Origin: Xiphias gladius
Lineage: Eukaryota > Chordata > Actinopteri > Istiophoriformes > Xiphiidae
Reading direction: 5' to 3'
NCBI RefSeq assembly: GCF_016859285.1
Contig: NC_053409.1
Coordinates: 27,786,539 to 27,850,538, forward strand
Length of the DNA stretch: 64,000 nt
Made by a program: the position numbers and the translations under genes. Below are positions 56,701 to 62,355 of the stretch, one piece after another (the stretch's first letter is position 1; every line of letters starts with the position of its first letter). A model generated the notes under the pieces. It had not been told where the DNA came from and did not search any database. It saw only the letters and a list, made by a program, of their open reading frames with translations.

Positions 56701-59700
56701 CTCAGAAAGATGGTTCCCACTGCTGCTGTCTGAGGACGGACAGGAGGACAAAACAGTCAGTTATAAAGTCTGACTGTCTGTCCCTCAAACTTTCTGTCTC
56801 TTTTTGTGTTTCTGCTTACCTTGCCGTCTCCTCCTCTTCTTCACTCTGATGGCTTTCACCACCAGCTCCTGTTGCATCTCCTCCTGACCCAGGGGGGCAC
56901 TGTAGCGTCTGGAGCTGAGCTCACAGGATGTGGTTACTGGGGCAATTCCATAAAGACTGTCCCAGGAAGTGACTGAGCTGCTGCGACTACGGGAGCTGCT
57001 GGTGAGCAAACCAGACCGCCGGCAGAACTGCTCCATCACCTGCACCCGCATGGAGTTTGTTTATATAGCAATACGTATAAAACAGATTACGTTATACCAA
57101 CAACAAAAAAATAACAGTAACAGTAAAATAACCAGTTTGTAAATCAAAACTTCAACCAGTAAACCAGTCTGTTATTCAACACATTAACCAGTCAACCAGT
57201 CTGTAAGGCAACAAGTTAACCAGTCAACCAGTCAAACAGCTTGTGGACACGCACGCACGCACGCACGCACGCACGCACGCACGCACGCACGCACGCACGC
57301 ACGCACGCACGCACGCACGCACGCACGCACGCACGCACGCACGCACGCACGCACGCACGCACGCACGCACGCACGCACGCACGCACGCACGCACGCACGC
57401 ACGCACGCACGCACGCACGCACGCACGCACGCACGCACGCACGCACGCACGCACGCACGCACGCACGCACGCACGCACGCACGCACGCACGCACGCACGC
57501 ACGCACGCACGCACGCACGCACGCACGCACGCACGCACGCACGCACGCACGCACGCACGCACGCACGCACGCACGCACGCACGCACGCACGCACGCACGC
57601 ACGCACGCACGCACGCACGCACGCACGCACGCACGCACGCACGCACGCACGCACGCACGCACGCACGCACGCACGCACGCACGCACGCACGCACGCACGC
57701 ACGCACGCACGCACGCACGCACGCACGCACGCACGCACGCACGCACGCACGCACGCACGCACGCACGCACGCACGCACGCACGCACGCACGCACGCACGC
57801 ACGCACGCACGCACGCACGCACGCACGCACGCACGCACGCACGCACGCACGCACGCACGCACGCACGCACGCACGCACGCACGCACGCACGCACGCACGC
57901 ACGCACGCACGCACGCACGCACGCACGCACGCACGCACGCACGCACGCACGCACGCACGCACGCACGCACGCACGCACGCACGCACGCACGCACGCACGC
58001 ACGCACGCACGCACGCACGCACGCACGCACGCACGCACGCACGCACGCACGCACGCACGCACGCACGCACGCACGCACGCACGCACGCACGCACGCACGC
58101 ACGCACGCACGCACGCACGCACGCACGCACGCACGCACGCACGCACGCACGCACGCACGCACGCACGCACGCACGCACGCACGCACGCACGCACGCACGC
58201 ACGCACGCACGCACGCACGCACGCACGCACGCACGCACGCACGCACGCACGCACGCACGCACGCACGCACGCACGCACGCACGCACGCACGCACGCACGC
58301 ACGCACGCACGCACGCACGCACGCACGCACGCACGCACGCACGCACGCACGCACGCACGCACGCACGCACGCACGCACGCACGCACGCACGCACGCACGC
58401 ACGCACGCACGCACGCACGCACGCACGCACGCACGCACGCACGCACGCACGCACGCACGCACGCACGCACGCACGCACGCACGCACGCACGCACGCACGC
58501 ACGCACGCACGCACGCACGCACGCACGCACGCACGCACGCACGCACGCACGCACGCACGCACGCACGCACGCACGCACGCACGCACGCACGCACGCACGC
58601 ACGCACGCACGCACGCACGCACGCACGCACGCACGCACGCACGCACGCACGCACGCACGCACGCACGCACGCACGCACGCACGCACGCACGCACGCACGC
58701 ACGCACGCACGCACGCACGCACGCACGCACGCACGCACGCACGCACGCACGCACGCACGCACGCACGCACGCACGCACGCACGCACGCACGCACGCACGC
58801 ACGCACGCACGCACGCACGCACGCACGCACGCACGCACGCACGCACGCACGCACGCACGCACGCACGCACGCACGCACGCACGCACGCACGCACGCACGC
58901 ACGCACGCACGCACGCACGCACGCACGCACGCACGCACGCACGCACGCACGCACGCACGCACGCACGCACGCACGCACGCACGCACGCACGCACGCACGC
59001 ACGCACGCACGCACGCACGCACGCACGCACGCACGCACGCACGCACGCACGCACGCACGCACGCACGCACGCACGCACGCACGCACGCACGCACGCACGC
59101 ACGCACGCACGCACGCACGCACGCACGCACGCACGCACGCACGCACGCACGCACGCACGCACGCACGCACGCACGCACGCACGCACGCACGCACGCACGC
59201 ACGCACGCACGCACGCACGCACGCACGCACGCACGCACGCACGCACGCACGCACGCACGCACGCACGCACGCACGCACGCACGCACGCACGCACGCACGC
59301 ACGCACGCACGCACGCACGCACGCACGCACGCACGCACGCACGCACGCACGCACGCACGCACGCACGCACGCACGCACGCACGCACGCACGCACGCACGC
59401 ACGCACGCACGCACGCACGCACGCACGCACGCACGCACGCACGCACGCACGCACGCACGCACGCACGCACGCACGCACGCACGCACGCACGCACGCACGC
59501 ACGCACGCACGCACGCACGCACGCACGCACGCACGCACGCACGCACGCACGCACGCACGCACGCACGCACGCACGCACGCTCGCACGCACGCTCGCACGC
59601 ACGCACGCTCGCACGCACGCACGCACGCACGCACGCACGCACGCACGCACGCACGCACGCACGCACGCACGCACGCACGCACGCACGCACGCACGCACGC

Positions 59701-62355: not shown

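Follow-up and report, generated by a model that had tools for sequence, protein, structure and literature searches.

The window (the whole stretch of Xiphias gladius DNA that was analyzed, 64,000 nucleotides) carries on its minus strand a gene that we take to be tecpr2, in what is presumably the gene order traf3-rcor1-ankrd9-tecpr2. Two exon-like open reading frames (ORFs) of this tecpr2-like gene were recognized by eye on the minus strand, with splice signals on both sides of an ACGC repeat array: one at 62203..62355 and, downstream of it in the gene, one at 56820..57039, with a putative acceptor at 57040. They would enclose an intron of about 5.2 kb (57040..62202, minus strand), of which the array makes up roughly half. 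A Pfam search with the exon-like ORFs beside the array, including the upstream one, gave no match; Hyd_WA (propeller) repeats were found in 5 of the 10 minus-strand ORFs scanned, further downstream in the gene, and the Pfam domains recovered from the ORFs were MATH, Myb, and Hyd_WA, plus ankyrin below the cutoff. The Hyd_WA repeats and the flanking exon-like ORFs fit tecpr2, and the position inside a tecpr2 intron that an earlier note on this DNA had proposed for the array thus appears to hold. Rfam at the gathering threshold gave no match, the tRNA scan found none, and a PDB search with one exon-like ORF gave four matches that are not meaningful (E values of 0.16 to 0.95). In the tecpr2-like transcript, the array would appear as a long (GCGU)n tract within an intron.

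Near the array, positions 59930-59973 partially duplicate the final part of the upstream exon-like ORF and its splice donor (62199-62241; 86% over 44 bp), and a second partial duplicate of the same exon end and donor was seen by eye at about 60007-60040; the two duplicated exon ends are possible intronic decoy donors. A stretch of the same intron at about 61200-62130 looks by eye like what we assume to be a decayed Tc1-type transposon. Elsewhere in the window, positions 25587-25962 hold a 36-bp minisatellite of 10.6 copies (97%).

Composition of the array in the window

An exact repeat search of the window returned (ACGC)583 with no mismatch at 57249..59580 on the plus strand (2332 bp), which bears out the length and purity claimed in the earlier note; the period-4 stretch begins at 57248 and measures 2333 bp. 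To the right of this core, on the same strand, lie the interruption block TCGC(ACGC)2TCGC(ACGC)3TCGC (59581..59612, with its TCGC units starting at 59581, 59593, and 59609), (ACGC)22 (59613..59700), an AACAC register break (59701..59705), (ACGC)9 (59706..59741), and the AC tail of a compound microsatellite (59742..59762). TRF gave the array a score of 4959, with 99% matches and 0% indels over 57248-59759, the next best of its 57 rows scoring 682. The array sits between two degenerate minisatellites, one adjoining it on the left (57130..57239; ∼32 bp/8 bp, CCAGTC type) and one on the right (59757..59913; 17/29 bp, TCAACATTCACACAGC type).

The 4-bp units run head to tail, as in a tetranucleotide microsatellite, and purines and pyrimidines alternate, as in Z-DNA-forming sequences. 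Positions 57249-59762 contain 622 CpGs, and the CpG observed/expected ratio elsewhere in the window is 0.42. The CpG density and the alternation had both been pointed out before, and both are there because of the ACGC motif, which brings one CpG per 4 bp and a strict purine/pyrimidine order. The right edge had been described as showing A-to-T changes and a CA tail that looked like decayed ACGC. The A-to-T changes are present, as the three TCGC units, but a change from A to T is not CpG decay. The AC tail, in turn, need not be decayed ACGC, because (ACGC)4(AC)5 junctions occur at 531 places in the genome and the reverse order at 383; given these counts, the tail cannot be taken as a sure sign of decay.

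If CpGs are assumed to change at 1e-7 per site per generation, the absence of any CpG change from the 583 units places the last copying of the core no more than about 51,000 generations ago (95%), and lower rates give a longer bound. A clean core therefore requires neither extreme youth nor absent methylation, and purity by itself proves neither youth nor lack of methylation. Recopying of the core, or polishing of its consensus, would reset CpG decay. The clearest CpG-type changes among the arrays described below are an ATGC between 214 and 182 units in the C16 array and an ACAC between 147 and 22 units in the C7 array. The choice offered in the earlier note, that the array expanded recently, stays unmethylated, or was duplicated by the assembly, omits homogenization, be it through exchange between arrays or through consensus calling, and its unmethylated state is unnecessary given this bound.

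ACGC arrays elsewhere in the genome

The 690.8-Mb assembly (1298 contigs, the window lying in contig C10) was searched for ACGC repeats. The 24-mer (ACGC)6 occurs at 6140 forward and 3066 reverse places, and (ACGC)50 occurs at 4615 forward and 1808 reverse places. Arrays were located by the (ACGC)6 list, by array-edge patterns, and by the TCGC-block pattern and were then read through, which yielded 15 loci on 14 contigs whose runs sum exactly to the (ACGC)50 totals, so that no pure run of at least 200 bp was missed in the searched sequence; N stretches could hide others. The arrays start (first or last (ACGC)6, lower coordinate) at C1:22499248, C2:3174670, C2:3524260, C4:5024038, C6:18719027, C7:10340159, C8:4494753, C9:8080358, C10:27843787 (the array in the window), C12:14602764, C14:23335257, C15:18203295, C16:7715449, C19:18981608, and C21:17548068. 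Measured from the first to the last (ACGC)6, they span 1431 to 2635 bp (mean 2111, standard deviation 353), and their longest pure runs are the 583 units of the window, followed by 571 and 569 units. The picture of a single exceptional locus, and with it the uniqueness of the window array, is thereby ruled out: the array is real in the assembly and is more interesting as a member of a class than as a locus.

The remaining ACGC arrays contribute 1595 places of the 24-mer between them, and no pure run of at least 50 units was counted in the assembly outside the 15 arrays. Runs of 25 to 49 pure units were covered in part, through certain edges: all seven matches of an ACA right-edge search and all three of an AC left-edge search belong to the 15 arrays, and a search with 20 units plus an edge, allowing up to 3 mismatches, gave 13 matches, one of which is a short 24-unit array and the others of which lie within the 15. 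From these samples and the (ACGC)50 counts, the length distribution of ACGC repeats appears two-humped. It is not the continuous distribution of stepwise slippage, a comparison in which runs of 25 to 49 units are covered in part and assembled lengths may be unreliable.

Other motifs were also counted. In the assembly, (AC)98 occurs at 52,863 places. The first two such loci on C1 were read: a pure (GT)655 (positions 461-1904 within C1:6550300-6553800, followed by GG and (GT)66) and an array of 107 units. Kilobase arrays are thus not confined to ACGC, and AC also has arrays of middle length. (GATA)50 was found at 0 places in the assembly. We do not claim that kilobase growth is limited to alternating purine/pyrimidine motifs, one negative motif (GATA) and one kilobase AC locus being too few for that.

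The array in the window is about 52 kb from the end of C10, which ends 47 kb past the window. No telomere repeat was seen in these final 47 kb, and the other 14 arrays are at least 3 Mb from contig ends, which rules out a subtelomeric position as the cause. When 541 bp of the left flank was used as a query, it matched one place in the assembly, the window itself, so there is no second allele or haplotig in the assembly to serve as a check.

The TCGC interruption block

Growth of each array by independent slippage would leave each with its own misprints. Among the 15 arrays (7857 pure units), a script counted 26 TCGC units against 17 other single substitutions; the latter include six ACAC and two ATGC, several lie in AC-rich edges, and one is the AACAC break of the window, with 71 more bases being out of register. 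The TCGC units do not lie scattered. With T standing for TCGC and numbers for the ACGC units between, the C2 array reads 116-T2T3T2T-399, the C8 array 85-T2T3T2T-507, the C12 array 68-T2T3T2T-24-T-151, the C19 array 12-T2T3T2T2T-256 (plus two lone T units further on), and the array in the window 583-T2T3T-22; the C14 array reads 571-T3T2T-26 and thus has the 4,3 part of the pattern. Six of the 15 arrays, each on a different contig, therefore show a spacing of TCGC by 3-4-3 units or part of it, so that interruptions are not private to each locus, and 9 of the 15 are without the block.

The exact block TCGC(ACGC)2TCGC(ACGC)3TCGC occurs at five places in the assembly, all of them inside arrays (C2, C8, C10, C12, and C19), and no exact copy turned up in the assembly outside the kilobase ACGC arrays. 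By count, the block in backward order (T3T2T) likewise occurs at five places. Fourteen ACGC units followed by TCGC gave eight matches, all in the six block-bearing arrays, and (ACGC)3TCGC(ACGC)2 occurs at 16 places, 15 of them in these six arrays and one in a short C23 array without the block. Between the block and one edge of the array there are 48 to 161 bp in C10, C14, and C19; for the array in the window, about 21 bp of AC tail then follow until other sequence is reached.

Two null models, both simple and both taking the numbers of T units as given, were simulated. With T units placed uniformly, 0 of 100000 trials had at least five of the six arrays sharing a spacing pair, as seen for five arrays here; with spacings held to 1 to 6 units, the probability of at least five of six was 9e-5. 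Given the shared block and these results, independent slippage accounts poorly for the six arrays. As far as array sequences can tell, the shared block suggests either that chromosomes exchanged array DNA or that the assembly blended the consensus. Separately, ACTC and ACGA, two rare changes, stand at a distance of 4 or 8 bp from each other in both the C7 and the C8 array and perhaps form a second shared block.

Origin of the kilobase arrays

We see about an even chance that the 15 kilobase arrays grew at short ACGC/AC microsatellites in large jumps, by recombination-dependent copying that was sometimes templated by another ACGC array. The alternating purine/pyrimidine microsatellite would first break or stall replication; Z-DNA-forming repeats promote double-strand breaks, as passages of PMC9276527 describe. 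The broken end could then copy an ACGC tract, sometimes that of another chromosome, by break-induced replication or synthesis-dependent strand annealing, and passages of PMC7613824 state that break-induced replication can be triggered by unstable repeats. About 2 kb might be copied until the end reanneals within ACGC, a length that would suit repair synthesis. Misprints of the donor would travel with the copy, which could have left the six arrays with the whole or part of the TCGC 3-4-3 block that they share in the assembly, and the near purity of the arrays may stem from recent copying or from repeated recopying. In its wider form, to which we give somewhat less than even odds, kilobase ACGC arrays spread and homogenize between nonhomologous chromosomes as a dispersed, template-copied family that grows in single jumps of ∼2 kb, with the TCGC 3-4-3 block as a tracer whose sharing is based on six arrays of one assembly.

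An assembly artefact is the foremost alternative, one that we find possible, if rather doubtful: the arrays would truly be long, and correction or polishing would have recruited reads of other loci, purified the arrays, and spread the block, so that assembled lengths might be unreliable. Pure ACGC reads would presumably be unplaceable within or between arrays, errors in the assembly of tandem repeats are documented in passages of PMC6868369, and the narrow range of spans (1431 to 2635 bp) and the high purity would also be expected from a technical ceiling and consensus polishing; moreover, the left-flank search leaves no second allele as a check. Against this, three of the six blocks lie within the 48 to 161 bp from an array edge where reads could anchor and misrecruitment should be weakest, which is an argument and not proof. 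The array loci contain no N, and variants limited to one or two arrays survive (GCGC in C12, for example, or ACCC, present in C7 and C19), both of which also argue against blending.

That each locus expanded independently, and that local slippage of one A-to-T change produced the TCGC pattern several times over, appears improbable to us. TCGC(ACGC)2 is a 12-bp unit that slippage could duplicate, and C19 has one extra; short ACGC/AC arrays are frequent seeds, and AC repeats also come in middle lengths. Against it, however, four arrays have the 3-4-3 order in common and two more have parts of it; the null simulations and the lack of any counted pure ACGC run of at least 50 units outside the 15 point the same way.

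The presence of the block on six contigs could also point to a dispersed mobile element that carried array and block to new sites, an explanation that the flanks make very improbable. Between the flanks of all 15 arrays, compared over up to 900 bp (395 to 512 bp on the 3′ side of five arrays), there were two hits alone, of 35 and 37 bp, and between 2.5-kb flanks of the first ten arrays there was one pair with hits, C1 and C12 (66 to 70%). No target-site duplication was evident: a comparison of the 25 bp that precede an array with the 80 bp that follow it gave common words of at most 7 bp. Neither common termini nor a flanking element was thus found in the flank comparison, and a common transposon is ruled out by unrelated flanks and edge words of at most 7 bp. 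In many arrays, read on the ACGC strand, other DNA adjoins the 5′ side and AC lies at the 3′ end, as in the window; C6 is reversed, the C7 array is bordered by AC at either end, and C15 and C19 are without the AC tail. Nothing is concluded from this orientation, because the short junctions lean likewise (531 versus 383).

Selection that maintains the array as a regulatory element of tecpr2, through Z-DNA or CpG, would agree with the purine/pyrimidine alternation, the CpG in each unit, and the intronic position, and is hardly credible with 14 similar arrays elsewhere; we take the array in the window to have no selected function, and none of the results pointed to one.

Significance and known systems

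Microsatellites are usually viewed as independent loci that change stepwise. If copying between arrays is the true reading, the block on six contigs and the class of ∼2-kb arrays would allow a direct test, in a natural genome, of whether simple repeats are copied from locus to locus, and this would bear on the origin of large pathogenic expansions. If the cause is technical, the arrays are a clear warning of how an assembly may merge arrays of simple repeats, whose purity and length should then not be taken for biology. Literature searches on ACGC arrays, very long microsatellites, and interlocus conversion, in a coverage that leaves out most subscription journals, returned no report of shared interruptions; searches on long teleost arrays, on tecpr2 with microsatellites, and on Z-DNA with expansions returned nothing on kilobase ACGC arrays, for which the notation "(ACGC)n" may escape text search.

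In fish, ACGC is among the frequent intron tetranucleotides in some of 14 genomes according to passages of PMC8186053, a survey that counts perfect tetranucleotide repeats from 16 bp and, in those passages, names neither kilobase arrays nor sharing between loci. Atlantic cod likewise has a tandem-repeat-rich genome in which repeats fragment assemblies; as passages of PMC5241972 give them, however, its repeats are nearly half dinucleotide and average about 84 bp, which is not kilobase scale. For the proposed copying, a likeness is found in work on break-induced replication and eccDNA at microsatellites, in which non-B microsatellites are copied by replication-dependent repair; there, in contrast, the repeats were integrated at an ectopic site of an experimental system, and the passages concerned claim no natural transfer between loci (PMC11161834). 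A parallel in scale and setting is the CCTG repeat in CNBP intron 1 of myotonic dystrophy type 2 (DM2), a kilobase tetranucleotide expansion in a vertebrate intron (75 to 11,000 repeats); the title of PMC10849350 links its large contractions, studied in yeast, with the repair of double-strand breaks. The DM2 repeat differs in being a CCTG motif at one locus in patients, whereas the arrays described here are of ACGC, at 15 loci, six of which have a common interruption block.
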